Below, piece by piece: positions 3,915 to 23,683 of a stretch of 52,053 nucleotides of DNA. A program made the translations under genes and the position numbers. How positions within the stretch are numbered: the first letter of the stretch is position 1; every line of letters starts with the position of its first letter. A model generated the notes under the pieces. That model did not search any database. It was not told the origin of the DNA and saw only the letters and a list, made by a program, of their open reading frames with translations. The DNA lies in the IMG/VR virus record IMGVR_UViG_3300006903_000015, positions 1 through 52,053 of that record, one strand, 5' to 3'. This DNA is from a virus.

Positions 3915-3923
3915 GGCTTTGGC

Positions 3924-6566: not shown

Positions 6567-6569
6567 CCT

Positions 6570-7097
6570 TCAGTCCTCGTTCCGTAATTTGTGCGCGCGG
6601 TACGCGCAGTAACCGCCGATGCCCAGGCCGACGACAGAAACGGTCATGCTCTTGACCGCTTCGGCGTGTACCGCTTCATCGGTCGAGCCCCAGGTTGATT
6701 TCGCGCGCCAGCCATTGCGGAACGCGGCGAACGTGAAAGCGCCCGCACCCGCGCCCCAGGCGCCACCGAAAAGCGCGCCGATGCCGGCGCCGGCGGCAAC
6801 GGTCAGCAGGGTGATGCCGGCGCTCCGGCGCGCGTTGCCGCCACCACCCGGCAGGTTCGATCCTTCGCCGAAAACTACGGGCGTGTGCACGGGCGGGAGC
6901 GGCGGCGGGGGCGGCCCTTCGGCGGCGTAAACCTTCGGCTCTTGATTGGGGCCTGGCGGCAGCGCGGGGAGCGGCGCGGATGGTGGCGGCGGACCGCCGT
7001 TTCCGTCCTCATCGACGGCAAGGGGCACTTCAGGGAACTCCCAGGGATCACCCTGGTCCTCGAAAATGCCGCTCGGTACGTCGTCTGCCTCAGCCAC
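6570..7097 (-). CDS. Proline-rich, glycine-zipper membrane protein, 175 aa
   Basis: The N-terminal 90 residues are acidic and then very Pro-rich (PPPPS, GPPPPPLPP). Residues about 108-145 form a Gly/Ala helix pair (AGAGIGALFGGAWGAGAG) like glycine-zipper membrane segments. A further hydrophobic stretch (VSVVGLGIGGYCAY) precedes a basic end. The start is GTG 7097, which lies only 6 bases after a -10-like box and has no ribosome site, implying a leaderless message. Function is unknown; virion membrane-penetrating or host-membrane roles are both possible. Confidence 0.65.
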   Translation of the reverse strand: MAEADDVPSGIFEDQGDPWEFPEVPLAVDEDGNGGPPPPSAPLPALPPGPNQEPKVYAAEGPPPPPLPPVHTPVVFGEGSNLPGGGGNARRSAGITLLTVAAGAGIGALFGGAWGAGAGAFTFAAFRNGWRAKSTWGSTDEAVHAEAVKSMTVSVVGLGIGGYCAYRAHKLRNED

Positions 7098-7103
7098 GCG
7101 ATC

Positions 7104-7132
7104 AGGCTACTGGCAGATCGAGAAAACACGAA
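7104..7132 (-). promoter_or_regulatory. Putative leaderless promoter for the leftward operon starting at 7097
   Basis: On the minus strand, TTCGTG (7127-7132) is 17 bases from TAGCCT (7104-7109), which is 6 bases before the GTG start at 7097. The bases just before the -35 box (CGATTTC) also occur before the promoters at 16949 and 17216. Spacing and shared flank support it, though the -35 is weak. Confidence 0.45.
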
Positions 7133-7148
7133 GAAATCGAGCGAAACT

Positions 7149-8468: not shown

Positions 8469-8761
8469 ACGCGCTTCACCGCGACTTCGGCGTCGTACAG
8501 CACTTCGCTTGCCCGCACGTAATCCTCGCGCGGGACTCCGGTTGCCACGGCCACCGCTGCGGCCAGGTTCATGACCACGGCTGTCGTGATCTCGGGGGTC
8601 AGTCGCTTGTCCGTGAGCATCCGTTGCTTCAGAAAAGCATCGAGGGCTTTGCCGAGTGCGCCGGCGGGGGTTTGTAGATCAGGCGCCGGCGGATCTTCGG
8701 CACGGCCGCCGCGGATCACGCGCATTCGTTTTCGGCTTGCCCGGCGTTCTTGGCGGTTCAT
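8465..8761 (-). CDS. Hypothetical small basic-start protein, 98 aa
   Basis: I start it at ATG 8761, which overlaps the upstream stop (ATGA) and gives the N terminus MNRQERRASRKR. The rest is an alpha-helical segment (GKALDAFLKQRML, AAVVMNLAAAVAVATG). No family is recognised. It is coupled by 4-bp overlaps to the RyR-domain gene before it and the glycosyltransferase after it. Confidence 0.65.
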   Translation of the reverse strand: MNRQERRASRKRMRVIRGGRAEDPPAPDLQTPAGALGKALDAFLKQRMLTDKRLTPEITTAVVMNLAAAVAVATGVPREDYVRASEVLYDAEVAVKRV

Positions 8762-9471
8762 GCGAAAATGCCTCCCTGGTGGCCGAGCGTTCCGTTCGTG
8801 CCGGCGATGTCTTCGGCGAGATCGCCCGCATCTTCGATCGTGCTCTGGCACGCGTAGAGGGCTGCCTTCTTGTCGCACTCCTTGCCGAAGGCCTCGAGCC
8901 AGTCGGCGATGCCTTCGCGGATCTTGTGCAGGCCCAGGGGTTTCGTCACCTTGCGTACGTCGATCGTGAGCTCGCCGCGGAGCTCTTCGGAGATCTTGTA
9001 GGCCGTGTGCGCGACGGCCATCATGACCCCGTTGCGGACGTGCGCCTTCACGCGCTCTTGGAGCGTCGGTGGATCCGACTTGTAGAAGAAGGCCGGCTTC
9101 AGTCCGCCGTCGGGATCGATCGGCGGGAAGATGCCTTCCTGTTCGTCGGGATCGGCCGGTCTGATCTCGGGTTCTTCATCTGGGCGCATTAGCCGTCCAT
9201 GTTTGAAGCCGAGCACGTAGCCTATGGCTTGCTCTTTTTCACAGGATGGCAGGTCGTTCCAGTCCACGATGCACGGGTGCTCGTGATCGTTGCCGGCCGC
9301 ACCGCGCTTCCATCCGTCCACGCGCATCGCTTCGCGCCATTGTGTGTGGATCTCGACTGCGATTCCGAGCTCGCTCATCTGATCTTCTTCTACCCACTTC
9401 TCGAGCCGTACGAGTCGATCGAAGTTGAGCTCGTGCAGCCACGGCAGCCCTGGGTCAGAAATCGTCTCCAT
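8758..9471 (-). CDS. RyR-domain protein, 237 aa
   Basis: Residues about 38-92 follow the ryanodine-receptor repeat (RyR, PF02026) pattern: H42-x2-W45, GW at 53-54, HPC at 65-67, then WNDLPSCEKE (71-80) and a helix. Prokaryotic and phage RyR domains have been proposed to bind nucleotide-type ligands and occur in host-virus conflict contexts. The C-terminal 100 residues are helical and unassigned (a DRKVTKPLG-type turn, then a helix with several Cys). There is a strong ribosome site (AGGAG, 7 bases) before ATG 9471. The domain call is mine by eye; the function of the protein is unknown. Confidence 0.7.
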   Translation of the reverse strand: METISDPGLPWLHELNFDRLVRLEKWVEEDQMSELGIAVEIHTQWREAMRVDGWKRGAAGNDHEHPCIVDWNDLPSCEKEQAIGYVLGFKHGRLMRPDEEPEIRPADPDEQEGIFPPIDPDGGLKPAFFYKSDPPTLQERVKAHVRNGVMMAVAHTAYKISEELRGELTIDVRKVTKPLGLHKIREGIADWLEAFGKECDKKAALYACQSTIEDAGDLAEDIAGTNGTLGHQGGIFA

Positions 9472-9474
9472 GCC

Positions 9475-9669
9475 TTACTCCTTCGCGCGCTTCTCGAGTT
9501 CTTCGCCGCGGTGGCCAGTCCACGCTACCCACAGATTAAAGAAACCATTTGCGCCGGCAATTAAAGCCAGCGGCAGGTGGCCCGACGAGATCGCTTCACA
9601 GCCGACAAGAAAGCTGAGCGTTGCAGCCGCTGCCCCAAACTCCCGCCAGCGAACAATGTACTTACTCAT
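9475..9669 (-). CDS. Small membrane protein, 64 aa
   Basis: Two hydrophobic stretches (FGAAAATLSFLVGC and LPLALIAGANGFFNLWVAW) with a charged tail ending EELEKRAKE suggest a two-helix inner-membrane protein. ATG 9669 overlaps the end of the previous gene in the arrangement GATGAGTAA, which is also found at the 9837/9844 junction. A TTG three codons earlier is an alternative start. Size and topology would allow a holin role, but nothing shows it. Confidence 0.6.
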   Translation of the reverse strand: MSKYIVRWREFGAAAATLSFLVGCEAISSGHLPLALIAGANGFFNLWVAWTGHRGEELEKRAKE

Positions 9670-9844
9670 CGGCTTCAAGGGCTTCGTCCAGACTTGCCTT
9701 CACAACCCTCCACATATGGAGGCCTACGCAAAAGAGCGCGCCTCCCATCGTGAACCAATGTCCGTTGCTCCACGTTTCGGCGGCGATGAGCAGGTACACG
9801 GAAATGAGATCCACGCTATGGCTGGACGCCTTCATCTTACTCAT
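9662..9844 (-). CDS. Small membrane protein, 60 aa
   Basis: A hydrophobic helix (LISVYLLIAAETW) and a second weaker one (FTMGGALFCVGLHMW) are followed by an acidic tail. It is paired with the small membrane gene at 9475. ATG 9844 overlaps the upstream stop within GATGAGTAA; a GTG two codons earlier is possible. Function is unknown, and the pair could act together at the membrane. Confidence 0.55.
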   Translation of the reverse strand: MSKMKASSHSVDLISVYLLIAAETWSNGHWFTMGGALFCVGLHMWRVVKASLDEALEADE

Positions 9845-10496
9845 CGCCACGCACCACTGAGTGATCGATCTTGAACCGGTAGCCGCAGCCGAGCTGGGGG
9901 CACGTCGCCCATTCGTCGAGCTCGATCGTACCGGCCAGCGTGACCACTTCGTTCGGGTCGTCTGGGTTGATCCAGATCTCGCCCATGTTCTTCGGGTCGA
10001 CCTCGAAATGCCGGTTCGATTGCTTGATGTGCATCTGCGAGTCGGCCATGTGCCGGCCGAGCGTGAAGACGCAGCGCGGGCAGCACATCGTGAGTGTGTA
10101 TTCCTTCGTCCCGTCTTCGTGCGTCTCTTCCGACAGCTCGCAGGTCATCCACTCTTTGATCTCCGTCGAGCGGGGACGCTTGATGCCGAGCACGATGCTC
10201 GCGTGCGTCGAGCGGCCGCCGAGCTTCATGCTCATCATCCTGGCGTGCGTCGTGGCATCGGATGCGATGGGCTTTCCGTCAGGCGACAGGGCACCGGGAA
10301 GGGCGCCGCCGCGGGTCGCGGCGAATTGCGCGTCCTGCACGTTCCGGCGCTCCTCGGCTTCGGCGTGGCGCCGGGCAACGTCCATGTCGTACGCGAACGA
10401 GGTCGTTCCTCCCCGGACCCAGGCATCGAGCGGCGACTCGATCTCTTTGGCAGGCTTTTCTGCCGCTACATCAGCCGGACTATCGCTATCGGCCAT
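9837..10496 (-). CDS. Hypothetical zinc-binding-like protein, 219 aa
   Basis: The N-terminal 75 residues are charged and low in complexity. The middle part has CCPRC (about 139-143) and later CPQLGC (about 202-207), spaced like two halves of a zinc site, in a beta-rich region (EYTLTMCCPRC, NEVVTLAGTIELDEWATC). No named family is recognised. The gene is the first of a leftward unit: its ATG 10496 lies 6 bases after a -10-like box with a well placed -35, so the message may be leaderless. Confidence 0.65.
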   Translation of the reverse strand: MADSDSPADVAAEKPAKEIESPLDAWVRGGTTSFAYDMDVARRHAEAEERRNVQDAQFAATRGGALPGALSPDGKPIASDATTHARMMSMKLGGRSTHASIVLGIKRPRSTEIKEWMTCELSEETHEDGTKEYTLTMCCPRCVFTLGRHMADSQMHIKQSNRHFEVDPKNMGEIWINPDDPNEVVTLAGTIELDEWATCPQLGCGYRFKIDHSVVRGDE

Positions 10497-10502
10497 TCTC
10501 CC

Positions 10503-10532
10503 CCACTAGCACCGGGGAGCCGAGAGCGTCAA
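10503..10532 (-). promoter_or_regulatory. Putative leaderless promoter for the gene at 10496
   Basis: On the minus strand, TTGACG (10527-10532) is 18 bases from TAGTGG (10503-10508), and the ATG follows 6 bases later. The -35 box shares its TGA with the stop codon of the gene ending at 10529. The layout matches the promoters at 16925, 17192 and 23690. The intervening GGGAGA could alternatively serve as a ribosome site for a longer message. Confidence 0.5.
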
Positions 10533-11587
10533 CGGCGCTTCGGGCCCTCCCCGGCCTTCAGGCGCTCGAGGTACTTGTGGGACAGACTCTTGAGGACGTC
10601 ATACGCGCGCGCCTCGGTCGTTCGCTCGGTCAACACCGCCCATTTGGCTTCCTTGCCGCGCTCATCGTAAATCCGGCAGAAGCTTCCGTTCTCGCAGCAC
10701 GCTTCGATATCGCACACGCACGTGTGCCCGGGCGGGAGCTCGGGTTCTACTCCCTCTTTCATTCGCGCGACGAATGCGGCGTGCGCCTCGTGGCGGGTCG
10801 GGCGGGGCGCGATCACGGCCGGCGGCTCGGGGTGCCCGATGCTCAAGCCGTGGGGCTCGGGAACACGGTCCATGAAGCTTTTATCCATCATGGCCTTGAT
10901 GCGCTTCTGGTGACAGGCCGGGCAGTTCCAGATGCCTTCACAGCCCACGCTGCGGAGCTTCTCGCCATCCATCAGCGCGTCGCACCCGGGGCAATGAAAA
11001 CAGCTTGTCACTTGCGCGTACCCGTTCGCCTCGTCATCAAAGCCCACACAAAAGGTCTTCCCGCGCCACCCGATGCGATAGACCCACTCCAAGCGGTCGA
11101 TTTCGGTGACTCTGGCCTTCCGGCCAAGCTGGCGGCGCGCCTTGTCGCCGATCTCCATCACGCCGTAGCGCGTGATGAGCTCGGATGAGTAGGCGTAGAG
11201 GCCGATCGCGCGGCGCGTTGGGAGCCCTGCAGCGCAGGTTGGGCTCCGATATGTGGAACTGTCCGCGTACCCAACAATTTCCTTGCCCCACTTTTCCCAG
11301 TCTTCTTCGCTCAGCGAACCAACGACGGAGAGACCGAGGTCGAGCTTCTCCACCGTGAACTGGCACTGGGCGTTTCCCACCTTGTTCTCGATCAGATCGC
11401 CTACGTAAAGGCGCGCGCCCTTGCAATCGACTGGCCAATGGACGGCGAGCCGCGCCTTGTATGCCTCGTCCGTCTCCCCTTCGTCGCGCCGTGATTGCTG
11501 CGCGCCGAGCGCGGTGAGTTCGGGGCCGGCGGCATGATCGAGCAGATCCCGTGAGTAGCGTTGATCCGGTGGTGAGTAGCGTTTCAT
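10529..11587 (-). CDS. Hypothetical protein with shared N-terminal module and zinc knuckles, 352 aa
   Basis: ATG 11587 gives MKRYSPPDQRY; the open frame upstream overlaps another gene. Residues about 20-60 contain PELTALG..RRDEGETDEAYKARLAVHWP and then YVGDLIEN. This module recurs in the proteins at 19784 and 24142. Further on, CPGCD and CPACHQ form a likely zinc ribbon, and CVCDIEACCENGSFC near the C terminus is Cys-rich. No enzyme motif is seen. Similar DELG...RxxGExDxxYRxRL segments occur at the start of some phage baseplate-type proteins, but that link is loose. Confidence 0.65.
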   Translation of the reverse strand: MKRYSPPDQRYSRDLLDHAAGPELTALGAQQSRRDEGETDEAYKARLAVHWPVDCKGARLYVGDLIENKVGNAQCQFTVEKLDLGLSVVGSLSEEDWEKWGKEIVGYADSSTYRSPTCAAGLPTRRAIGLYAYSSELITRYGVMEIGDKARRQLGRKARVTEIDRLEWVYRIGWRGKTFCVGFDDEANGYAQVTSCFHCPGCDALMDGEKLRSVGCEGIWNCPACHQKRIKAMMDKSFMDRVPEPHGLSIGHPEPPAVIAPRPTRHEAHAAFVARMKEGVEPELPPGHTCVCDIEACCENGSFCRIYDERGKEAKWAVLTERTTEARAYDVLKSLSHKYLERLKAGEGPKRR

Positions 11588-11591
11588 CGTT

Positions 11592-11822
11592 TCATCCTCC
11601 GTCGAAACCAGGCGGAGCTTCCGTTTCCGTCTCTTCGATGAGTGCGCGGCGGGCATCTTCTTTCGCCTTAAACGCTTCGAGCTCGGCCACGCGGGCAGTG
11701 AGCTTCTGAATGACCGTGCAGCACGACACGTGCTGGGTAAACGATACTCCGCTGGAGTAGGACACATTCTCCAACGCGCCGCAGTACTCGCAGGTTTTGT
11801 ATTTGTAGTTTTCTGTGCTCAC
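11592..11822 (-). CDS. Small zinc-finger and coiled-coil protein, 76 aa
   Basis: It starts at GTG 11822, overlapping the upstream stop (GTGA). Residues 8-13 are TCEYCG, and a later VSCC pair completes a possible zinc site. A helix follows (VIQKLTARVAELEAFKAKE) with heptad-like spacing. Nothing else is recognisable. It sits between a winged-helix gene and the 352-residue protein. Confidence 0.6.
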   Translation of the reverse strand: MSTENYKYKTCEYCGALENVSYSSGVSFTQHVSCCTVIQKLTARVAELEAFKAKEDARRALIEETETEAPPGFDGG

Positions 11823-12412
11823 AGCAGGCTCTTCCCCGTCTTCGCCTGATAGCGGCGGACGATGGTGAACGACGCGGACTTCGGGTCCTTGCCGCGGGAG
11901 ACGACCCGATCGTGGATCCCTTCGGTGGCGCCGATGCGCGCAAACTGCGCGGCGCGGGTGAGTGAATCGTACGGGCCCCAGGGGCCTTCGGAGGTCAGGG
12001 GTTCGGAAGAGCCCACGGCGAGGGCCCACACGTAGAAGCCGGGGTTCGATTTCATGGCTGGTTTCTCCGAATCCGCGAACACCGCGTCCGCGCCGCGCTC
12101 TTCCACATCGGCTGCGACCGCTTTGGGCAAGCCCCACACCGTGGATGCGCCCGGCTTACTCCGCATGCCGCCTTCGGTCTTGGGTGCGTCGATCCAGTGC
12201 CATTGGCGGCCACGCTTTTTCATAGCGGAGCCGGTGTCGACGACAAGGCCGCGGAGGGCGAGCGTGCGCGCGGCGCGGTTCACCGCTGCCGTCGTCATGC
12301 CCAGATCTTCGGCGATCTTGCCGGCGGCCGCGCCGGTCGACTCCGGTTCTACGTAGTCGACTTCGCTAGCGATCGCCGCGAACACTGGCTGGAGCCCTGC
12401 ATCCACGTTCAC
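11819..12412 (-). CDS. Winged-helix DNA-binding protein, 197 aa
   Basis: Residues about 28-60 fit a MarR/MAGE-like winged helix-turn-helix: AAGKIAEDLGMTTAAVNRAARTLALRGLVV with a following wing (RQWHWI). The C-terminal half (about 100-197) is a separate small domain with YVWALAVG and SFTIVRRYQAK strands. A transcription-regulator role is likely for the N-terminal half; partner and target are unknown. GTG 12412 overlaps the stop of the zinc-ribbon gene upstream (GTGA). Confidence 0.7.
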   Translation of the reverse strand: MNVDAGLQPVFAAIASEVDYVEPESTGAAAGKIAEDLGMTTAAVNRAARTLALRGLVVDTGSAMKKRGRQWHWIDAPKTEGGMRSKPGASTVWGLPKAVAADVEERGADAVFADSEKPAMKSNPGFYVWALAVGSSEPLTSEGPWGPYDSLTRAAQFARIGATEGIHDRVVSRGKDPKSASFTIVRRYQAKTGKSLL

Positions 12413-12594
12413 TTCGCCTTCCGTTCGTTCTTCTTGTCCCGTTTTCGCTTCATACGCACTAGCTGGGTGATTTCTCCCGGGAAGAGTGCGCCGGGGCGTG
12501 GGGTGCGGCCACAGCGCCTGCAGGTCTCACCCCGAAAGACCACGATGAACTCGAGGTCGCGGGTCAGGCACTCTTCGCACACGCACGCGGGCAC
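12409..12594 (-). CDS. Small zinc-ribbon protein, 61 aa
   Basis: CVCEEC near the N terminus and CRRCG 20 residues later make a C2-C2 zinc ribbon. The C terminus is very basic (RMKRKRDKKNERKAK), suggesting nucleic-acid binding. The start is GTG 12594. It is coupled to the winged-helix gene downstream by a GTGA overlap. Confidence 0.65.
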   Translation of the reverse strand: MPACVCEECLTRDLEFIVVFRGETCRRCGRTPRPGALFPGEITQLVRMKRKRDKKNERKAK

Positions 12595-12597
12595 CCG

Positions 12598-13443
12598 TTA
12601 GCCCGCTTTGCGGCCGAGCTCTTGGGCAACCTGGACGATCCGGGCGGCGCCATCGGCGGCTTTGCGGGCAGCGCGGAGCTCCTCGGCGGCACGGGCGAGG
12701 TTGTCCGCCCGCTCGCGCAGCACCCGTTCGGCCTGCTCCACTTCTACGATGGGATCAAAATGCTCGTGATTGTAGCGGCTGAGCATCATGATCTTTTCCA
12801 CGGCAGCGCCGATGCGGCCTGCGTTCCACTTGCCGATCTTGATGCCGCTTTTTTCCTCGAACTCCTTGATCGCGGTCTCGAGATTCTTGTTTTCATTCTC
12901 GAGGTCTTTGATCTTCCGTTCGAGCTCGGGTGGGCCAAGCCCGCGGCCCTCGGCAAGGCCGTCGCTTCGGGCTGTCGTCACCCGGGCATCGAGGCCTTCT
13001 GCAGCGCGGCGTAGAAGTGCTGCGACGAATCCCTTGTCGAGTGGCTTTGGTTTCAGCGCGGGGGCTTCGCGCTTCGTCTTCAGGGTCTGGCCACCGAGCA
13101 CCATGAGCCCCCAGGTCGGCGGGAGCTCGCCGGGCTCGATGATGCTCTCGTCGCCCACGGCTACCCACCAGAAGTCACAGAATTTCTGGATCGCGTCGGC
13201 CTTGTCGGGATTCATGAGCTCGCGCTGCCAGTCCTGCCTGCTCACCTTGATCTCGATGCCGTGGATCCCTAGCCCACGCGAGGGCCACAGCGATACGGCC
13301 ACGGCATCGGCGTGGCGGGTGCACCCGAATCCGGTCTTGTCCCCGACTTCGGCAAGAAGCGCCCAGGCGGGAGCAGCGAATTTCTTCTCGAGTGCGGCGA
13401 AGACGTCGCGGGCGCCGTACTTCGGTGCTTTCTTCGATGCCAT
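12598..13443 (-). CDS. PD-(D/E)XK nuclease-like protein with coiled coil, 281 aa
   Basis: Residues 40-90 show a restriction-endonuclease-like core: D46 (TRHADAVAV), then GIEIKVSRQDW with E64-x-K66, then KFCDFWWVAVGD. This resembles the MmcB-type and related phage nuclease-like proteins, in which these residues bind metal. The C-terminal half is a long heptad helix (ELERKIKDLENENKNLETAIKEF and a second AERVLRERADNLARAAEEL). The coiled coil fused to the nuclease core is unusual. ATG 13443 overlaps the endolysin stop (TGATG), which decides the start. Confidence 0.7.
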   Translation of the reverse strand: MASKKAPKYGARDVFAALEKKFAAPAWALLAEVGDKTGFGCTRHADAVAVSLWPSRGLGIHGIEIKVSRQDWQRELMNPDKADAIQKFCDFWWVAVGDESIIEPGELPPTWGLMVLGGQTLKTKREAPALKPKPLDKGFVAALLRRAAEGLDARVTTARSDGLAEGRGLGPPELERKIKDLENENKNLETAIKEFEEKSGIKIGKWNAGRIGAAVEKIMMLSRYNHEHFDPIVEVEQAERVLRERADNLARAAEELRAARKAADGAARIVQVAQELGRKAG

Positions 13444-14255
13444 CAGCCGCCCGCCGCTGCCCACGTCTCCCGGCCGACCTTGCCGTCGACTTTGAGCGGT
13501 GCGCCCGTTCCGGACACGTGCGCGCGCTGGAAGAATTTGGTCGCCGATTCGGTGAGGGAGCCGAAGTGACCATCGACCACCAGGGCATCGTGGCCATTGG
13601 CTTCGAGCCAGGGGTTAGCCACGTGCTGCCAGATCTTCACGTAGGGTCCGAACGAGCCGCGGAGGATGAGTGGATTATCGGGCAGAAACGTATCGAGCTG
13701 CCAGGGCTCGAGCGCCGGGGGTTGCCCCGTGTCCATCACCGGCTCACCGAGTGCGCCGGCGATCGCTAAAACCGCGCTTCGCATCGCCTGGTAGTGATTC
13801 TCGATCCTATCGGCGATCGTTTTTCCGAACCCTTCGTAATAACGCGTGGCGTGAAGGGCTGCGGACACATTGTAAAGATTGCCCGAGCTCGCGGCGGCAA
13901 GAACGGACGGGCGCTTCACGTACACTTCGCGCGCCAGCGCATCGAAGCCTGCCTGGGGCGTTGGGTATTTCGCAAAGCAGATCGTGTACGGGGTCGATGA
14001 CCCGTCGGGGTTCGGGTGCGTGTCGACGTACTGGAAGGAGGTGCCAAGATCGCAGGGCGGGCGGCTTGATTGGATCGCGCCCATGTTGTTCGAGCCCTGG
14101 CCCGCCGTCTTCCACGCTGTCCCGTCGCGCGTTTCGATCCAGCTCACCCCCTGCTCGGCCTGCGCTTCGGAAGTGGTGGGATCCCGGCCGATGCGCGTCC
14201 TAAATCCTTCGACCACGAATGGCCGTGCCCAGCGATGCAGCTCTGCGGGTGTCAT
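13443..14255 (-). CDS. Endolysin: glucosaminidase/lysozyme-like domain plus peptidoglycan-binding domain, 270 aa
   Basis: Residues about 30-160 look like a glucosaminidase or lytic-transglycosylase fold: EQGVSWIETRDG with a likely catalytic E41, NNMGAIQ, then YTICFAKYPTPQAGFDALAREVY as in cell-wall hydrolases. The C terminus (about 200-270) is a PG_binding_1 module: LRGSFGPYVKIWQ, VDGHFGSLTESATKFFQRAH and VDGKVGRETWAAA. No signal peptide is seen, so export would need a holin; small membrane proteins are encoded nearby. The ribosome site is AAAGGA before ATG 14255. Confidence 0.82.
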   Translation of the reverse strand: MTPAELHRWARPFVVEGFRTRIGRDPTTSEAQAEQGVSWIETRDGTAWKTAGQGSNNMGAIQSSRPPCDLGTSFQYVDTHPNPDGSSTPYTICFAKYPTPQAGFDALAREVYVKRPSVLAAASSGNLYNVSAALHATRYYEGFGKTIADRIENHYQAMRSAVLAIAGALGEPVMDTGQPPALEPWQLDTFLPDNPLILRGSFGPYVKIWQHVANPWLEANGHDALVVDGHFGSLTESATKFFQRAHVSGTGAPLKVDGKVGRETWAAAGG

Positions 14256-14274
14256 GCTCGGTTTTTTCCTTTCG

Positions 14275-15063
14275 TCAGTGGGCTACTTCTAGGGCGTAGA
14301 GATCCCACGCGCCGACAAGGGCGTCCTCGTCGATCAAAAAGCACCAGGGCCAGTACTGGCCTTCGGGATCGTGCGCGCCGCCCCAGGGATCGGGCCAGTG
14401 GTTTTGCCCAAGCGCGCGATAGCGACCACCCGGCATCTTCCACACGCGCACGATGCGGACGGCGTGGCCGTTCTGTTCGCCACCCATGTGCGCCGCTGTT
14501 GCGACCTCGTTCGGCTTCAGATTGAAGAATGGCTCCTTGAGACCGAAGGCGCCGCTTACACCGAGACCGCGATCGGTGGCATCTGAAAGCGCGTCGAGCT
14601 CGAAGATCCGATAGTGGGTGATGGTTGTACCGCGGTGATCGTAGGCGTCGAGCTCGGAGGCGAGATCGTCGCCGGCGGGTGCGGCGCCGCGGCCGGCTTC
14701 TACCGGATCGGTGTCTTCGCCCTCCTTATAGTGATCCCAGCCGCGGTGGATCAGCCCATCGATCATGTATTCGGTGCGCGTGCCTTCGTCGATGTTTTCG
14801 ATCAGGCCCTGCCGGCGCCGGGCCTCCCGCCAGATCCCGATGGCCGAAGCCGTGATGACGTTGCCGTGCGCCGCGTCGATGATTTCTGCACCCGAGTAGC
14901 CCAAGCAAGCCGGGGCAAACTGGATCCGGCGGGGCGATGGCACGGCAAGGACCCGGCCCGTGCCGGGCGCGGGCAGCGCCTTGGCGCTCCCGTAGTTTGC
15001 AGCCACGGCATCGCTGAAGCGTGTGACTGGGCGATCGGGCAATGTGCCGCAGAGATGCTTCAT
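14275..15063 (-). CDS. Papain-like cysteine peptidase, 262 aa
   Basis: ATG 15063 overlaps the upstream stop (ATGA) and defines the start. The C1-type layout is visible: an oxyanion Gln (Q48) five residues before Cys53 in APACLGYSGAE, then ASAIGIWREARRR and a following GWDHYKEG (the usual region after the active helix). GHAV with H200 and GQNHWPDPWGG with N221 follow. The Cys-His-Asn order and spacing support a working peptidase. There is no propeptide or signal, so it should act inside the cell or in the virion. It lies just upstream of the endolysin gene; the target is unknown. Confidence 0.65.
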   Translation of the reverse strand: MKHLCGTLPDRPVTRFSDAVAANYGSAKALPAPGTGRVLAVPSPRRIQFAPACLGYSGAEIIDAAHGNVITASAIGIWREARRRQGLIENIDEGTRTEYMIDGLIHRGWDHYKEGEDTDPVEAGRGAAPAGDDLASELDAYDHRGTTITHYRIFELDALSDATDRGLGVSGAFGLKEPFFNLKPNEVATAAHMGGEQNGHAVRIVRVWKMPGGRYRALGQNHWPDPWGGAHDPEGQYWPWCFLIDEDALVGAWDLYALEVAH

Positions 15064-15446
15064 TTGCAAAGCTCCCCGCTGTAGGCCCGATCGAGATCCG
15101 CGCAGTCGTGGATCGTGGCGATGCACCGGGGTTCCCAGTTGCGGCCATCGGCGGCGGCAGCGCGGCAGGCTACAGCGAACGGGGTACCGCCGGGCGTCGT
15201 CCACCACGGCGTGCCATCCGGCTTCCGGCATTCCAGGCCATCGGGCGCGGGGTGCAGGGCGCGTGGGCCGATGCGCGCTTCGGCGCGGCCACAGTCATCG
15301 AGCCCAGCGTCCGTGGTGGCGGCACTTGCATCGCCATACGGTGCGGGCGCCGAGGTCGGGATCGGTGCGGCGTCTGGCTTGTCCGGCGGCGGCATGCAGC
15401 GGCAGGACAGGGCAAGAAGCGCGACCAGGGTTACTGCGTGCTGCAT
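15060..15446 (-). CDS. Small proline-rich lipoprotein, 128 aa
   Basis: A short signal peptide (VTLVALLALSC) ends in a lipobox-like LALSC, followed by a Pro/Ala-rich stretch (CMPPPDKPDAAP). The rest holds several Cys residues. ATG 15446 lies inside the end of the preceding lipoprotein gene (16-base overlap). Two adjacent overlapping lipoprotein genes beside an endolysin recall Rz/Rz1 spanins, but a classical inner-membrane coiled-coil partner is not seen, so this is only a possibility. Confidence 0.6.
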   Translation of the reverse strand: MQHAVTLVALLALSCRCMPPPDKPDAAPIPTSAPAPYGDASAATTDAGLDDCGRAEARIGPRALHPAPDGLECRKPDGTPWWTTPGGTPFAVACRAAAADGRNWEPRCIATIHDCADLDRAYSGELCK

Positions 15447-15793
15447 TCCCGGGCCCAGCTTTCGGATGCGCCTTCGGAGATCACGATGGCGCCGGCGGCG
15501 ATGGCCGCTGCGGCGACCCCGCCAATCGCAAGGCCCACCCGCGTGGTTTCGTATTTGGGATCTTCGAGGGGGAGTGTGGAGAGGCCCGATGCGCCGCCGA
15601 GAACAGCGGCACCCTTGCCAAGCGCGCCCCAGAATTGGCGCCGATCGTCCAGTGTGTTGCAGCGCGCGACCTGTTCCGGGGCCACCGCGGGCGAGCCCAC
15701 TGTGCGCGGCGGCGCCGCGGCAAGCCGATTCTGTTCGAGGGAGCCGGTGCAGGCGGCGAGGATGAGGGCTGCGAGGATGATGGGCGATTTCAT
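15431..15793 (-). CDS. Small lipoprotein with a second membrane helix, 120 aa
   Basis: Signal peptide MKSPIILAALILAAC with a clear lipobox (LAAC). A mid-protein Gly/Ala helix (VGLAIGGVAAAAIAAGAIVIS) could cross a membrane. Ribosome site AAGGA precedes ATG 15793. It overlaps the downstream lipoprotein gene by 16 bases. The family is not recognised; a lysis or envelope role is suggested by its neighbours. Confidence 0.65.
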   Translation of the reverse strand: MKSPIILAALILAACTGSLEQNRLAAAPPRTVGSPAVAPEQVARCNTLDDRRQFWGALGKGAAVLGGASGLSTLPLEDPKYETTRVGLAIGGVAAAAIAAGAIVISEGASESWARECSTQ

Positions 15794-15804
15794 GGACGAG
15801 TTCC

Positions 15805-15999
15805 TTATTCGGGATCAATCTTCCGTAAATCCAAGCGCCCGCTGGCGGTCCGGCGTGGGCCGTACGCAGCTTTCAAACGGGCTATCAATTTTCGCACCAG
15901 CCGTTCGTGGACTTCGGGCGAAATGCCGGTGAGGGCGGCTTCGATGAGCCGCTCGAGCTGTTCGAGGCGGGGACTGTCTTCGTCTTCCGGTGCCGCCAT
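15805..15999 (-). CDS. Small helical protein, 64 aa
   Basis: It starts at ATG 15999 through a TAATG overlap. The acidic start is followed by two amphipathic helices (LEQLERLIEAALTG and HERLVRKLIARLKAAYG) and a basic tail. No family is recognised. Confidence 0.55.
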   Translation of the reverse strand: MAAPEDEDSPRLEQLERLIEAALTGISPEVHERLVRKLIARLKAAYGPRRTASGRLDLRKIDPE

Positions 16000-16292
16000 T
16001 ACTTCGTGCCGAGCCACTCCTTGACGGCCTCCACCGTGCCCACTGCGGTGATCGTGAGCCCGGCAATGGCGGCAAGAAATGCCACTACATCATCTGCGGC
16101 ACGCTTGGGAACCCCCGGCTTTGCATGGGCCAAATTCGTGGGTTTTACCGGGCCGCGGGAGGCAAGGACGTGATCGACAGCGGCACGGCCGATGGTGAAG
16201 AGCCCAATCGCGGCGCCGCCAGCAATTAGCACATCGGCAAAGTCGAGCTTGGCTGGCGGGGCCTGGAGAACGGGCGGGGGATGGGCCGCCAC
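15999..16292 (-). CDS. Two-helix membrane protein, 97 aa
   Basis: GTG 16292 is chosen because GGAG lies 5 bases before it, right after the stop of the upstream gene. Two hydrophobic helices are seen (VLIAGGAAIGLFTIG and VVAFLAAIAGLTITAVG) separated by a basic loop, ending in a charged tail. Size and topology are holin-like, and it lies near the endolysin, but no holin family is recognisable. Confidence 0.55.
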   Translation of the reverse strand: MAAHPPPVLQAPPAKLDFADVLIAGGAAIGLFTIGRAAVDHVLASRGPVKPTNLAHAKPGVPKRAADDVVAFLAAIAGLTITAVGTVEAVKEWLGTK

Positions 16293-16294
16293 CG

Positions 16295-16918
16295 TTACTC
16301 CATCGAAACGGAGACGGGCAGGATCATCATGCCGCTCGGCGCGGGCAGGCGCATGCCGCAGCGGCCGACCGACTGGGGAACGGTGAGCTTTCGGCCGGTG
16401 TCGCACCACTGGGCCGCCTGGCCACTGCGGCGCTTGGCACTCACCCGGATCCCGCGCGCAGCAAGCCAGCTCGCCGGCTCGATGAACACGGTCGATAGCC
16501 GGCCGCTTGCGTCGCGCACGACCTGCTCGACGGTCATCGCGAGGCCATCGCCGAGGGCCACGACCTGGCCGGCATGCACCTTCTGCCCCGGACCCTGCAC
16601 CTGGATTTCGAGACCGCCCTTTGCGGCGTCTCCCATGTACGTGATGATGATGGGCTCGCTACTCGATGCGATCCGAAGCGTGCCGCCGGGGTTCGTGCCG
16701 CCGGGCTGGATGATCTTGCCGGCCACCGGGGAAAAGATCTCCGCCTTGCCGCGGTAGCTGGCGATGCGCATGGCGGACGTGCAGGCGCCCGTGCCGGGCG
16801 ATCCGGCGCAGGCCGATACGAAGCCGTCCCGCACGATCGCACGGAAGGGGCGGTAGGCCGCGCGCGCGGCGGAAGCGGCACCAAGGGCACCGAGGAAAAG
16901 TACGCCGAGGGGGATCAT
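16295..16918 (-). CDS. Membrane-anchored protein with barrel-sandwich-like domain, 207 aa
   Basis: The N terminus (IPLGVLFLGALGAASAA) is a signal or anchor. Residues about 60-135 carry EIFSPVAGKIIQPGG, IIITYMGD and GQKVHAGQVVALGDG. This is the pattern of a biotinyl/lipoyl-like or LytM (M23) duplicated hybrid motif. The HxH and HxxxD zinc residues of active M23 peptidases are absent, so it is probably not a peptidase. ATG 16918 lies 6 bases after a -10-like box, predicting a leaderless message. Confidence 0.6.
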   Translation of the reverse strand: MIPLGVLFLGALGAASAARAAYRPFRAIVRDGFVSACAGSPGTGACTSAMRIASYRGKAEIFSPVAGKIIQPGGTNPGGTLRIASSSEPIIITYMGDAAKGGLEIQVQGPGQKVHAGQVVALGDGLAMTVEQVVRDASGRLSTVFIEPASWLAARGIRVSAKRRSGQAAQWCDTGRKLTVPQSVGRCGMRLPAPSGMMILPVSVSME

Positions 16919-16924
16919 GGTCCG

Positions 16925-16954
16925 ATGCTACGGGAGGGATTGGGCGGGGGGCAA
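16925..16954 (-). promoter_or_regulatory. Putative leaderless promoter for the operon starting at 16918
   Basis: On the minus strand, TTGCCC (16949-16954) is 18 bases from TAGCAT (16925-16930), and the ATG is 6 bases on. The flanks CCCGATTTC before the -35, TCCCTCC in the spacer and CG after the -10 are repeated at the promoter at 17192, so the two are copies of one design. Confidence 0.65.
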
Positions 16955-16992
16955 GAAATCGGGCCAGAACCGGCGCCGCAGGCCGCGGGTTT

Positions 16993-17184
16993 TTACCGGT
17001 GTGTGCCTACCGGAACGCGGTCCAGCATCCCAAGGACGCCGAAGACCTGCAGGAGCCAGATCACCAGGGCCAGGATTACGACCACGTTCAGGATGGTCTT
17101 CACCTTCTGCTCCATCGGAACGAAGGTGTTGATGCAATAGAGAACAACGCCGACCACGACGATCGCGATGATGATACTCAGCAT
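16993..17184 (-). CDS. Thivi_2564-like two-helix membrane protein, 63 aa
   Basis: Two membrane helices (IIIAIVVVGVVLYCI and ILNVVVILALVIWLLQVFGVL) are joined by FVPMEQKVK. The pattern V-N/L-TFVPM-x-K-I-K-x-ILN-V matches the small Thivi_2564-type membrane proteins found in bacteria and phages. The molecular role is not established and could be holin-like. ATG 17184 lies 7 bases after a -10 box, with no ribosome site. Confidence 0.72.
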   Translation of the reverse strand: MLSIIIAIVVVGVVLYCINTFVPMEQKVKTILNVVVILALVIWLLQVFGVLGMLDRVPVGTHR

Positions 17185-17191
17185 GCACTCG

Positions 17192-17221
17192 ATGCTACGG
17201 ATGGAGGGAAGGACGGGTCAA
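17192..17221 (-). promoter_or_regulatory. Putative leaderless promoter for the gene at 17184
   Basis: On the minus strand, TTGACC (17216-17221) is 18 bases from TAGCAT (17192-17197), with ATG 7 bases after it. It is the best match of the set. It shares CCCGATTTC, TCCCTCC and CGTAGCATCG with the promoter at 16925. It is divergent to the phosphatase gene at 17248. Confidence 0.7.
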
Positions 17222-17247
17222 GAAATCGGGTAGGATGGAGTCATCTC

Positions 17248-17718
17248 ATGATTCAAGTCGACCTTGGCCCGTTAAAGAACCGCCCCATTCTCGATGTGTC
17301 GCAAATTGCACCGAAGCTCTACCAGGGCTCGTTTCCCGATCCTGCCAAACGGATCGAACGGGCCGGGTTTCAAACACTGGTCTTAACCGCTGCCGAACTC
17401 CAGCCCGATGCGCGCGCGTACGGGAGCGCGGTCGAAGTCTTACGCTGCCGGCTAGCGGACAATCCGGAAGGGCCGACACGCTACGAATGGAACGCGATCC
17501 TGACCGTGGCCGCTGCGATCGATCGACGCTTGCGTGGCGGGCGGCGGATCTTGGTCACCTGCGCGCAGGGCAGAAACCGATCGGGCATCGTCATGGCCGT
17601 GGTGCTCCATCGACTCTATAACTGGTCGGGCGAGAAATGCGTACGCTGGATCCAGTCGCGCCGGCAGGACTCGCTCACCAATCCCGGCTTCGTCGCGGCG
17701 CTGACGAAGCTCCGCTAG
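17248..17718 (+). CDS. Dual-specificity protein phosphatase, 156 aa
   Basis: The cysteine-phosphatase P loop is intact: VTCAQGRNRSG with C105 and R111 (CX5R). A candidate general-acid Asp lies in RLADNP (D71), and IAPKLYQGSFPDP at residues 20-32 is the usual DSP entry segment. The length fits a minimal DSP domain of about 150 residues; no other domain or signal is present. Predicted reaction: removal of phosphate from Tyr/Ser/Thr residues or another phospho-substrate in the host. It is the only rightward gene in the first 30 kb and converges on the next gene with a 4-base overlap. Upstream, GGAG precedes the ATG; a TAGGAT -10-like box lacks a clear -35. Confidence 0.85.
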   Translation: MIQVDLGPLKNRPILDVSQIAPKLYQGSFPDPAKRIERAGFQTLVLTAAELQPDARAYGSAVEVLRCRLADNPEGPTRYEWNAILTVAAAIDRRLRGGRRILVTCAQGRNRSGIVMAVVLHRLYNWSGEKCVRWIQSRRQDSLTNPGFVAALTKLR

Positions 17719-17921
17719 GGCTTTGGGCGTGGCGGCGGTGAGTCAGCAAACTCCTTCAAGACGGCTGCCAGGGCGCGTGCGGTTTCTGCGGGAAGCGTGA
17801 TCTCGGCGTACTGCCCACTGGGATCGTTAACTCGTAGTCCCAAGACAGGTGGGCTATCCAGCTCGTACCTGTAGAACAGCTGCCAATTGATTCCCTGCAC
17901 AATTGGGTGATTGTAGGTCAT
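17715..17921 (-). CDS. Hypothetical protein, 68 aa
   Basis: ATG 17921 overlaps the upstream stop (ATGA), giving MTYNHPIVQ. The protein is small and mixed alpha/beta (YRYELDSPPVLGLRV, AEITLPAETARALAAVLKEF) with a Pro-rich end. Its stop shares the palindromic CTAG with the stop of the convergent phosphatase gene. No family is recognised. Confidence 0.6.
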   Translation of the reverse strand: MTYNHPIVQGINWQLFYRYELDSPPVLGLRVNDPSGQYAEITLPAETARALAAVLKEFADSPPPRPKP

Positions 17922-18193
17922 TTCTGTTCTTTCGTTGGTGCGCCGGGCGCATCCGCACATTGCGTGAGCCAGCGGTATCCGCAGCCCATGCAACGGATAT
18001 GCAGGTGCTCGCCGACAACGACACATGGATCAAAAACATCCTTGCCTTCAATGCCTTGGCAGTAAGCATCCGGGGAATACTGCCGGCGTCCGCACTTGAT
18101 GCAGCGGATCGCTTTGGCCCAGTGCGGGAGCGTTGCCGACTGGATCGAGTTTGGCACTTCCGTAGGCGGCGCAGACTTTCTGTACGGGCTCAT
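17918..18193 (-). CDS. Small zinc-ribbon-like protein, 91 aa
   Basis: CIKCGRRQ and CMGCGYRW, about 35 residues apart, form a C2-C2 zinc ribbon with an inserted loop. ATG 18193 overlaps the upstream stop. It belongs to the run of small Cys-pair genes between 17.7 and 19.8 kb. Nucleic-acid binding is the usual role of such ribbons but is not shown. Confidence 0.6.
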   Translation of the reverse strand: MSPYRKSAPPTEVPNSIQSATLPHWAKAIRCIKCGRRQYSPDAYCQGIEGKDVFDPCVVVGEHLHIRCMGCGYRWLTQCADAPGAPTKEQK

Positions 18194-18477
18194 GAGTCCT
18201 TCCCGGGCGTCACGATGTGAAAGAACATGCTGTCCTCGGCGCGCGCCCCCAGGCATTCGTAAAGTCCCCTGTCCACCCGGATCCACATTTGCCAGATCGG
18301 GTTCTGTTCAAGCTCGGCGTCGGTCAATGTGAGCAGGTAGTCGGCGATCCTGAGCTCGCTTGCACATCTCTCGATCCCTGCCGGACCCGATGGGCCGCCT
18401 GTCATCCGGAGCATCAGAACGTCGCGATGGATGAGGAGCCAGCGGTGCGGCTCGAACCTCTTATCCGGGAGTGCCAT
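18190..18477 (-). CDS. Hypothetical protein, 95 aa
   Basis: Mixed alpha/beta protein (WLLIHRDVLMLRM, YLLTLTDAELEQNPIWQMWIRV) with no signal peptide and no Cys pairs. The ribosome site is GGAAAG before ATG 18477. It overlaps both neighbours. No family is recognised. Confidence 0.55.
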   Translation of the reverse strand: MALPDKRFEPHRWLLIHRDVLMLRMTGGPSGPAGIERCASELRIADYLLTLTDAELEQNPIWQMWIRVDRGLYECLGARAEDSMFFHIVTPGKDS

Positions 18478-19090
18478 TTCTTTCCTTCACCTGGCGGCGC
18501 CAGGCAAACCATGCCTCGTGATCGCCGTTCGGGACGTAGGCGGATTTCTCGAATGGATCCCAGCCGGCTTCGTACTTTGCCCCGGGGAATCGGAAGTGCA
18601 CGGCCGGCCCTGCCGTCGTGTAGCCGTCCGCGCTCGTCACTTCAATGTCGGGCCCGAGGGCAGCGATCACCTGCTCGGCAAACTCCCAGCTCTGGATCCT
18701 GCGTTCCACGTGCCATACGGCATCGGCACCGGCGCACCACTCCGAACAGAAGACATGCGTGCCGCGGACCACAGGCTCGCGATCGGGGCAATACCCGTTC
18801 TCCCCATCGTCGTCGGCGTAGTCTTCGTCGTCACCGATCGGGCGCTGGCAGTGGTAGTACGCGCAGCCCGTGAAGCTCCAGCCATTGGCAAGCATGGCTT
18901 CAAGCAGCGTGCTGTAGGTTTTGCCCCAGCACGCATCGAACTCCGGCGCGCGGCGGATCTCGATCTCATCCGGATCGCCGCCGAAGAACCCGCATGCCTC
19001 TTCGCTCGCGTCGGCTTCGTTTGCGCCCCACACCACTTCTTGAAGCGGGCCGTCGTGGCAATCCTCAAAGGTCGCAACGTAGGCCTGCAT
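18461..19090 (-). CDS. Hypothetical Cys-rich acidic protein, 209 aa
   Basis: It starts at ATG 19090 (MQAYVATFEDC). The central part is acidic with CAYYHC and later YCPDREP and FCSEWC, which could form a zinc site. The C-terminal half ends KYEAGWDPFEKSAYVPNGDHEAWFAWRRQV. No domain is recognised. It overlaps the next gene by 17 bases. Confidence 0.55.
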   Translation of the reverse strand: MQAYVATFEDCHDGPLQEVVWGANEADASEEACGFFGGDPDEIEIRRAPEFDACWGKTYSTLLEAMLANGWSFTGCAYYHCQRPIGDDEDYADDDGENGYCPDREPVVRGTHVFCSEWCAGADAVWHVERRIQSWEFAEQVIAALGPDIEVTSADGYTTAGPAVHFRFPGAKYEAGWDPFEKSAYVPNGDHEAWFAWRRQVKERNGTPG

Positions 19091-19092
19091 CG

Positions 19093-19251
19093 TCACACTG
19101 CGCGATTCAGGTACTGGTCCACAAGAAGCCAGCGGGCACAGACCGTCGAAGGCAGCGGCTCTTCCCGCCAGTAGGTCGTTACCCAACCCCAGTACGGGCT
19201 GTACGTCGTCTGGGCCGCGTGCACGATACGCACACCGAATCCGCGTTTCAT
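19093..19251 (-). CDS. Very small hypothetical protein, 52 aa
   Basis: ATG 19251 overlaps the upstream stop (TGATG) and yields a 52-residue Trp/Tyr-rich peptide (YSPYWGWVTTYW) with one Cys. It is supported only by tight packing and coupling in the operon. Confidence 0.45.
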   Translation of the reverse strand: MKRGFGVRIVHAAQTTYSPYWGWVTTYWREEPLPSTVCARWLLVDQYLNRAV

Positions 19252-19496
19252 CAGCGGAACTCGTAGTCGCCGTTGTCGGCGTGCACGATCTTCCATCCGC
19301 AGCATTTGGTCAGAATCGCACGCGTCTTTGGATCGCGATCGGGCCGCTTCCGCTCTTCGGCATCGCGGCGCGCCGTCGTCCAGGAGTAGCTGCATTGGTA
19401 GCAGGTGTACCGGAGCTTCTCGCGGCCGTGCACGCGCGTGTAGCGGGGCCCGAGGATTTTCGATCCGCCGCATTTGGGGCATTCACCAAGAGTCAT
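19251..19496 (-). CDS. Zinc-ribbon protein, 81 aa
   Basis: CPKCGGSKI at residues 6-14 and CYQCSYSWTTARR about 25 residues on form a TFIIS-like zinc ribbon. The C terminus adds a CCGW motif. Such ribbons bind nucleic acid or RNA polymerase in other systems; no such role is shown here. TGATG coupling to the gene downstream. Confidence 0.65.
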   Translation of the reverse strand: MTLGECPKCGGSKILGPRYTRVHGREKLRYTCYQCSYSWTTARRDAEERKRPDRDPKTRAILTKCCGWKIVHADNGDYEFR

Positions 19497-19499
19497 GGC

Positions 19500-19784
19500 T
19501 CACTCCCAGCAGGCGCAGGAGAAATTCTGTTGGCTCACGAGGCCCGTCTCGGTGACGATGGCGAGGGCTGGGCGGCAGCTTGCCAGGCGCTTCGAGAGCT
19601 CGATGGATCGCGTGCTCCGGTCGAGCAGCGGGGCTTCGGGCGCGAACGGGCGGCGGTCCTCGATCACCGGCGGAAACTTCTCGCACACCCGGTGATTGGG
19701 TAGCTCCTTGTAGGCCGCGAGTTCAGCCCGTTTCCAGAACCGGCACGTTCCGCACGTGCCCTTCAATCGGATTGTCGGGAACAT
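19500..19784 (-). CDS. Small Cys-rich protein, 94 aa
   Basis: ATG 19784 overlaps the upstream stop (TGATG). CGTCRFWKR near the N terminus and CACWE at the C terminus, with two single Cys between, match small phage zinc proteins of unknown function. Confidence 0.55.
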   Translation of the reverse strand: MFPTIRLKGTCGTCRFWKRAELAAYKELPNHRVCEKFPPVIEDRRPFAPEAPLLDRSTRSIELSKRLASCRPALAIVTETGLVSQQNFSCACWE

Positions 19785-21052
19785 CAAGATCCTTTCGGTT
19801 TCGTGAACGTCTTCACCCATTCGTCGAAGCTCTGCACCTCGGGTGGCTTCCACTTCATGATGCGGCGGGGGCGGCGAAGACGTTCGGGGTGGAGTGAGTG
19901 CTTCACGTGGGCTTCGGTGATGGCAGCGCGGAGGCCATCGAGTCCCCAGAGTCCACGCTCACGCGCGAACAGGACCCCGTCCGGTTGGTACAGGGCGTAA
20001 CTCTCGCACATCAAGTGCCTATCGAACACGATGGACCAACCTGGTGGCAGCGCTCCGACAGCCCGATTCACCTTGTTCTGGTACTGCCGATAATCTTCGG
20101 CGTCATCGCCCACCGAAACCCATTCGGGAACGACATCGGCGGGCATCATCGCCGTGTTGTTCTCGGCAGCTCTGAGTTCATCTTGCGCACGGATGACCTT
20201 TATGATGTTCCAGGGTGTCCGGAAGCATGCATCGATCTCTTCTTCGTTTCCCTCGCGCACGAGTTCGGCGGGGATCCTGAACTCGCACGACTCGGCGCCG
20301 CGCTTCGTGTTCACGACGAACATGCCATAGTACGGATCCCCCGAGACTGTTCCGCTCCATTCGCCCAGGTTTCTGTTGGCAGCATCGTGAACGGCCTTCA
20401 ATTTCCATGGGTAAGTTCCCGGGCTCATCACGCTGACGACGTCCTTCATCGTTTCGATCTCCTTCGGCGGATCCGCCGGCATCGATTCCGCGGGCTCGAC
20501 CCTGCGCCAGCGCGTCCCGAGATCAAAGGCACCTACGCAGCCGCCCTGGGCGTTCGTACCCTTCGCGCAGAAGCCTTCGGCCAGGGACTCGCGAATGCTG
20601 GTTATGTCCACCACTTCGCCGTACTCATTCTCGATCCTGTCGCCGACACGTAGCGGCGACCCCGTTCGATCGCGCGGGCCGTCCTTCCCCGGCTTCACTT
20701 CCGGGCGCGCAAGCTTCTTCCAGAACTCTTGCAAGCTGTGAGCGTAGCTCTTTTCGCCCACGCAATTGCCCGCCACGACCGTCCCGTGCGCCCAAAAGCC
20801 GGGTGCGCCTGAGTTACCCTGGGTGAATCGCTCGACCTCGAGCGTCAGCGTCCCGTCCAGGTTTTGGATCCAGTCTCCCGGGTAGATGCAGGTTGAGCCG
20901 CCTGTGCCGATGCGGGCGCAAGGCCAGATGTTGAGTAGGCGCCAGTAGTAGGCTGTGTCCGGTTCGGATGTATCCCTTTCGATCCCGATGATCTTGCCAA
21001 GTTCATCGAGCTCCGCCGAGCTCGGCATCCCCGTGTAGGATAACTTCGTCAT
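19784..21052 (-). CDS. Hypothetical multi-module protein sharing domains with the proteins at 10529 and 24142, 422 aa
   Basis: From ATG 21052 the N terminus is SSAELDELGKIIGIERDT...AYYWRLLNIWP, the same module as in the 24142 and 10529 proteins. A GDRIENEYGEVV unit follows near residue 135, and the C terminus LPPGWSIVFDRHLM...GLDGLRAAITEAHV parallels the end of the 24142 protein. A Cys-containing region is inserted between. No enzyme motif is found. A longer frame could begin upstream, but it would start inside the promoter, so the shorter start is preferred. Confidence 0.65.
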   Translation of the reverse strand: MTKLSYTGMPSSAELDELGKIIGIERDTSEPDTAYYWRLLNIWPCARIGTGGSTCIYPGDWIQNLDGTLTLEVERFTQGNSGAPGFWAHGTVVAGNCVGEKSYAHSLQEFWKKLARPEVKPGKDGPRDRTGSPLRVGDRIENEYGEVVDITSIRESLAEGFCAKGTNAQGGCVGAFDLGTRWRRVEPAESMPADPPKEIETMKDVVSVMSPGTYPWKLKAVHDAANRNLGEWSGTVSGDPYYGMFVVNTKRGAESCEFRIPAELVREGNEEEIDACFRTPWNIIKVIRAQDELRAAENNTAMMPADVVPEWVSVGDDAEDYRQYQNKVNRAVGALPPGWSIVFDRHLMCESYALYQPDGVLFARERGLWGLDGLRAAITEAHVKHSLHPERLRRPRRIMKWKPPEVQSFDEWVKTFTKPKGS

Positions 21053-22543: not shown

Positions 22544-23683
22544 TCAGAGAAGCTCGACGATCGATTTGCCGGCCAGAAAGCCCAGGGCGCCGATGGCGGC
22601 TAGCTTCAGGGTCGACATGCCGGTGTCGAAGTAGCCAGGGGGAAGGAGGTTTCCGCCGCGCCCGGGGCAGCAGGTTGACCAGTCGCCCAGGCCTGCTACG
22701 GCGTACGGGCTGTTAAATTCGGCGTTCCAGCGGGGAATCAGGAACGTGCGCCACAGCGCGCCCTGGACGTGCCAGGCCTCGAAGACGTGATCGGCGGCCA
22801 CGTTTCCGCCGTAGTCGAAATCGTAGAAGTTGCCGGCGGCGACCCGTACGTTCGGGAAGGGCATTTCCTTCCAGGTTTTCGTGGGACCCGGTGTCGTGGC
22901 CCAGGGGCGGTTGCCGGCGCTGTCCGGCCGATCGCCGATCGTGACCGGGAAGGCGCCTGCTGGGAGGGACTGGGTCATCTGGGCCCAGTCGACGTTGATC
23001 GTCTTGATCCCGCCGAGCTCGACGTGGCCGGACTCCTGCCAGCCGCGGAGCACGTCAAGGCTCGCGTTGAAGACCCATTCGCTGGCAAGCGTCGTGTTCG
23101 CAACCTGGGCCTCGAGCGCGGAGGATTGCTTGATGTTCGTATGCGACGTGATGAATGTGGGGCCGAGAAAAGGATCCTTGTTGTCGGTGCCGCGCGCGGC
23201 GCGCACGCCGGCAAGGAGCGCATTGGCGCCGAAGTTCGCGTAACCGGTGAGGGTCGATGGGATCTGATCGCCGTTCCAGGCTTTCGGCAGGTTCAACGCG
23301 TCGAGCATCATCACCATGTCGAGCGCGCTTCTGTCCTGCTCGCTTTCCACCAGGTTTTTGATGAACGTGCCACCGGCGGAAAATCCGATCGCGCAGATCC
23401 GGCGGGGTTCGATGCCGCGGGCCTTGGTGCGCAAGATCCCCTGAAGCACGCTGCCGTCGCCCTTCGCGCGGTACATCGCCGCTTCGCGGCTGAAAGGGGA
23501 TCCGCCCCACGGCTCGCGCGGCTTTTTCTCCGTGTCGCTTGGACCCATGAACACATCGCTGCCGATGCCGTTCACGTCCAGGACTACCGGAGCGTGGGAG
23601 AAAAGGTTCGTCGGCTGGGCGATGGCGCGGGCCCTGGATTGGGGCGGGGTCGCGAACGCCGAAATGATGATGTCGGTCGCCAC
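22544..23683 (-). CDS. Alpha/beta hydrolase-like protein with C-terminal membrane helix, 379 aa
   Basis: ICAIGFSAGGTFIKNLV is a nucleophile elbow (GFSAGG, Ser102) of the alpha/beta hydrolase fold. An Asp in MMLDALNLP and a His in DHVFEAWHVQGALW are candidates for the triad. The C terminus STLKLAAIGALGFLAGKSIVEL is a likely membrane anchor. The hydrolase substrate (ester, lipid or peptide) is unknown. GTG 23683 lies 6 bases after a -10-like box with a matching -35, so it may be leaderless. Confidence 0.65.
   Translation of the reverse strand: MATDIIISAFATPPQSRARAIAQPTNLFSHAPVVLDVNGIGSDVFMGPSDTEKKPREPWGGSPFSREAAMYRAKGDGSVLQGILRTKARGIEPRRICAIGFSAGGTFIKNLVESEQDRSALDMVMMLDALNLPKAWNGDQIPSTLTGYANFGANALLAGVRAARGTDNKDPFLGPTFITSHTNIKQSSALEAQVANTTLASEWVFNASLDVLRGWQESGHVELGGIKTINVDWAQMTQSLPAGAFPVTIGDRPDSAGNRPWATTPGPTKTWKEMPFPNVRVAAGNFYDFDYGGNVAADHVFEAWHVQGALWRTFLIPRWNAEFNSPYAVAGLGDWSTCCPGRGGNLLPPGYFDTGMSTLKLAAIGALGFLAGKSIVELL

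Follow-up and report, generated by a model that had tools for sequence, protein, structure and literature searches.

A putative dual-specificity phosphatase of a virus-dominated clade with an unusual active-site loop, near-core in a lineage of large integrase-bearing viruses

Dual-specificity phosphatases (DSPs) usually have a His immediately in front of the catalytic Cys, although this is not obligatory for the family. To our knowledge, phages have rarely been shown to use such eukaryote-like enzymes. DUSP28 is a known exception to the His-before-Cys rule and displays atypically low activity due to bulky P-loop residues, while the His123Phe exchange in DUSP3 comes at a 19-fold cost (PMC5679558).

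The gene considered here lies on a virus record from IMG/VR (52,053 b), which makes up the window in full. As window bases 1-20000 are identical to positions 41159-61158 of a 138,061-b contig (G001), the window is part of a larger virus, the genome of which spans at least 138 kb; most of the same bases are also identical to a second contig of 95 kb (G002). The window encodes a DnaB helicase, a polymerase processivity factor, a ParB-like protein, RuvC, methyltransferases, an endolysin and glycosyltransferases, and the rest of G001 encodes an integrase, ThyX, DUF3310, epimerases and others, including two response regulators, the domains of which are found outside the window (L091-L096) together with a RyR domain, a SLOG (YAcAr) protein and DnaJ. 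Neither the window nor its parent contigs matched the terminase models PF03237 and phrog_2, and the listed PHROG matches of the window and G001 proteins include no family of portal, capsid or tail proteins. With no structural family recognised, the phage label rests on the IMG/VR record and the phage-type replication and lysis genes, and on this basis the gene can be called phage-borne, as originally predicted. At the DNA level, the two tested stretches of the window (7-31 kb and 31-52 kb) had no match among INPHARED phages; near-identical phages were not found in GenBank, and tblastn matched neither of two large unknown proteins to any phage. A protein that combines a SASA acetylesterase domain with laminin-G-like domains (window 720-2441, minus strand) is possibly a receptor-binding or tail spike protein.

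The phosphatase open reading frame and its surroundings are listed in Table 1. A GGAG ribosome site is located 7 nt upstream of the ATG, and gene calling assigns the frame a positive coding score similar to that of neighbouring genes. A spurious reading frame was considered and rejected on the grounds of the profile match, the fold and 48 other distinct family members.

Table 1. Coordinates of the phosphatase gene and adjacent features in the window
Feature	Positions	Strand	Remark
Dual-specificity phosphatase gene (P0001)	17248..17718	+	ATG 17248 to TAG 17718, 156 aa
Divergent gap	17185..17247		63 nt, phosphatase to leftward gene 16993-17184
Promoter-like element (TTGACC..TAGCAT)	17190..17227	-	leftward, 5' of the leftward TM gene
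Small membrane (TM) protein gene	16993..17184	-	leftward, 63 aa, divergent neighbour
Second, near-identical copy of the leftward element	16923..16960	-	5' of gene 16295-16918
Convergent ORF	17715..17921	-	68 aa (MTYNHP...), inner ATG of ORF 17715-18026
Gene of the upstream leftward unit	17918..18193	-	Cys-rich, weak zinc-ribbon match

The profile match and the predicted fold bear out the assignment as a dual-specificity phosphatase. Pfam DSPc recognises the product with 39.1 bits (E=8e-10), above the curated cut-off of 33.5, PHROG 10650 ('dual specificity phosphatase') matches at 2.4e-7, DUSP28 is the best solved single-sequence match (6.6e-7), and TkPTP/ShufPTP, DUSP28 and VH1 are among the family profile matches listed. 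By tblastn, the protein has no significant match in phages or plasmids. The AF2 model (pLDDT 92.8) displays the DSP/PTP fold and is grouped with DSPs by Foldseek and VIA-align (Z about 18-20 over 134-145 residues), TkPTP ranking first by Z when the predicted model is aligned with VIA-align (Z 20.3, rmsd 1.9 A, 139 residues).

The P-loop reads V103-T104-C105-A-Q-G-R-N110-R111-S112 (TCAQGRNRS), so that the CX5R loop is intact (C105-AQGRN-R111), with Thr104 in place of the canonical His. D71 is the candidate general acid, and R139 and N145 are also conserved. Across 32 aligned relatives D71, C105, R111, R139 and N145 are invariant, as is S112 of the loop, whereby the conservation of the P-loop, but not that of D71, R139 and N145, is partly imposed by the scan patterns. 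In catalysis, C105 would attack the phosphate as the nucleophile, R111 and the loop amides would bind it, and D71 would serve as acid/base. Judged from these residues and the model, the gene product is likely a genuine phosphatase with an ordinary fold that belongs to an unusual clade of viruses, and Cys-dependent catalytic activity is highly probable. By analogy with DUSP28, the Thr-for-His change together with the bulky residues Q107 and R109 could result in weak activity; as DUSP28 combines low activity with a similarly bulky P-loop, an absent or weak signal with pNPP would not disprove phosphatase function. A catalytically weak or dead, STYX-like protein that binds phosphate and works by binding phosphoproteins would fit the clade-wide loss of the His, the bulky loop residues as in low-activity DUSP28 (PMC5679558) and a CAADANRS loop in two family members; as essentially all members retain the loop Cys and Arg, and 32/32 aligned ones D71, unlike pseudophosphatases, this is very improbable.

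The family was collected by two degenerate P-loop scans and a profile scan, which yielded 39 contigs, and its aligned members are 28-46% identical to the phosphatase of the window. In the viral clade, the catalytic Cys is preceded by Thr in 46 members, Ala in two and Ser in one, and the Arg by Asn in 49/49, counts that include pattern-selected members, whereas other DSPs have His before the Cys in 14/15 and G, D or S before the Arg. Members found motif-free, via the unrelated protein P0002 described below, possess Thr before the Cys in most cases, Ser in one and Ala in two, and most of them carry C..G[RLK]NRS. The viral members group together in a 64-row tree, in which two long-branch rows, one cellular and one an HC paralog in virus contigs, prevent a strict one-branch split. 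In L070/L071, a second phosphatase domain, of the HC type (6335-6985, plus strand), directly adjoins the TC-type domain of these virus contigs.

Among bacterial-genome contigs, one strict P-loop pattern retrieved three relatives, on MAG contigs labelled Deltaproteobacteria, Pseudomonadota and Fimbriimonadaceae. The Pseudomonadota-labelled contig has replication genes in common with the window and is likely viral. When 299 Pseudomonadota genomes were scanned with the profile, this likely viral record scored 142.8 bits and all others at most 53.8. By its sequence, the gene is a member of a virus-dominated phosphatase clade in which the active-site loop is unusual.

RNA triphosphatases are known to have an Asn in front of the catalytic Arg, a likeness that bears on the substrate. 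Besides phosphoproteins, a lipid or inositol phosphate, a sugar phosphate, a nucleotide, ADP-ribose phosphate or an RNA 5' end might be processed, in metabolism or counter-defence. Such a non-protein substrate is also suggested by PTPMT1 and the DSP-containing PRK12361 among the matches and by the superfamily precedent, as rhodanese-phosphatase superfamily enzymes act on sugar and alcohol phosphates and a viral clade has been proposed for ADPr (PMC9503650). On the other hand, RNA triphosphatase entries are absent from the best 60 of 90 profile matches, and an ADPr gene beside the DSP was not seen in the tables examined. A phosphoprotein substrate is favoured, with chances that we consider about even; the chief alternative, a small molecule or RNA, is rather unlikely.

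To sample the lineage by a protein unrelated to the phosphatase, P0002 (250 aa, G001:104125) was used, the most conserved protein between G001 and its nearest DSP-bearing relative G006 (82%); the scan gave 30 loci. A family DSP is present in 20 of 27 records obtained in this way, and in 15/21 without the seed records and a duplicate virus; the seven records without DSP may be fragments. This presence contradicts a reading as sporadic cargo, and the phosphatase, as far as sequence comparison tells, counts as near-core among these large viruses with an integrase. An integrase occurs in 23/26 lineage records, by which the genomes are judged to be temperate-type. In 9/19 it is no more than 3 kb from the DSP, most of these cases falling into two groups of relatives; in the virus of the window it is about 46 kb from the phosphatase. 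Integrase-like proteins in frames of 1279-1455 aa with a PF00589 match adjoin the phosphatase in G015, G344, G346 and G347 (e.g. L176, L178). A conserved operon partner was not found across DSP contigs in general, partners recurring only within sub-lineages. An unknown protein of 379 aa (window 22544-23683, minus strand) shares 58% identity with a protein of G006 that is encoded about 4 kb away from the phosphatase. P0002 is adjacent to P0003 (315 aa), which is likewise highly conserved (L094:11126-11878 and 12063-13010); the pair marks a lineage of large viruses that bear an integrase and in which no structural family was recognised, and possibly represents virion proteins. The predicted model of P0002, checked for a capsid fold, resolved no fold (pLDDT 36).

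With respect to the strand layout, gene calling makes the phosphatase the sole confident rightward gene between 262 and 29500, all other confident ones there being leftward; a weak plus-strand ORF of 75 aa (29555-29782, score 9) stands at the border. In G001 the leftward stretch extends left past the window and includes other plus-strand genes, for example two epimerases (G001:27278-29225), so that the original prediction of an only rightward gene in a leftward 30 kb is true of the window, but not of the genome. The phosphatase stop overlaps the convergent ORF tail to tail by 4 nt. In 15/18 lineage loci the DSP is followed downstream by a gene on the opposite strand, compared with 43/362 for other genes (12%; binomial p 8e-12), and it stands alone as a counter-strand gene in 6/18 (G001, G012, G015, G344, G346 and G347) compared with 10/362 (3%; binomial p 6e-6), these statistics being based on our own gene caller and on related sequences that are not independent. 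The layout in the lineage is not chance and recurs well above background. In 31 DSP contigs outside the P0002 set, the DSP is convergent in 5/31, the background rate, and lone in 0/31, and the convergent or lone layout hence belongs to the P0002 lineage.

The recurrent position makes separate transcription of the phosphatase likely, a conclusion drawn from the layout. The promoter-like element GATTTCTTG.CC-N17-GTAGCATCG occurs in two copies and nowhere else in the window. Both copies point away from the phosphatase, the start codon of which is about 20 nt from the beginning of the nearer one (17190-17227); as a phosphatase promoter, the repeated element was rejected because of this orientation. 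No plus-strand promoter or terminator consensus was recognised beside the gene, and a rightward start, if any, would have to be confined to the 63-nt gap or lie inside the divergent gene. The layout thus suggests separate control, as proposed originally. Expression apart from the lytic units or in a lysogen may or may not occur, with the odds evenly balanced.

The gene had also been proposed to be of the moron type. A moron proper would be sporadic, recently gained cargo with its own promoter and terminator that is expressed in the lysogen and alters the host. The temperate-type lineage and the position as a single counter-strand gene between leftward units agree with this reading. Its composition is native (GC 62.4% versus a gene mean of 63.2%; GC3 74.5%, also like other genes), its distribution near-core and its divergence deep, which together with the failure to recognise a promoter or terminator beside the gene makes a moron proper quite unlikely. 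In sum, the original observation is confirmed, and the interpretation attached to it is supported in part.

Cumulatively, the preferred reading, to which we assign a probability of roughly 45%, is a stand-alone Cys-dependent phosphatase, near-core and with its own transcript, that acts on host or phage phosphoproteins. The gene would be read from its own rightward transcript and end face to face with the leftward operon, and the enzyme would dephosphorylate host or phage phosphoproteins and thereby set host signalling, or responses that depend on kinases, as part of a temperate-type programme; its host-interaction role is inferred. A more far-reaching scenario, unlikely as a whole, is that the TCxxGxNRS clade is core to the region for temperate control in a lineage of large bacterial viruses not yet described, adjoins the integrase in several members, is transcribed on its own and links host phosphorylation to the lysogeny decision or disarms kinase-based defence. 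A clade that is kept across divergent viruses, with an altered loop and a recurrent position, near a recombinase in several, may provide a handle on host phosphorylation, through which temperate viruses may be studied for reading or rewriting it. An apparently stray counter-strand gene can prove a conserved component.

Among known proteins, DSPs of Pseudomonadota share the domain as recognised by the family profile (20-54 bits), but carry an HC..G..R loop and stand outside the viral clade; many are frames of about 450-570 aa with extra sequence fused, PRK12361 being among the NCBIfam matches. PHROG 10650 and the DSP genes of mycobacteriophages (Rey, Estes and others) are phage-borne and match in the C-terminal half, but the similarity covers only about 37-63 residues and is not significant (tblastn E 0.3-0.6). 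Human and mouse DUSP28 (PDB 5y15, 2hcm) likewise dispenses with the His before the Cys and has bulky residues at the fourth and sixth motif positions, N and R compared with Q and R in the viral phosphatase; it differs by a Tyr instead of the Thr before the Cys, is eukaryotic and is remote at 27-28% identity. The archaeal, Thermococcus-type DSP/PTP TkPTP and ShufPTP (PDB 5z5a, 9e9l) are the best profile matches listed (1.9e-15) and, as the viral phosphatase, small and single-domain. These proteins are cellular or engineered and only 19% identical to the viral phosphatase, from which they are set apart by the features of the viral clade, the Thr before the Cys, the Asn before the Arg and the LCAxExQP motif.
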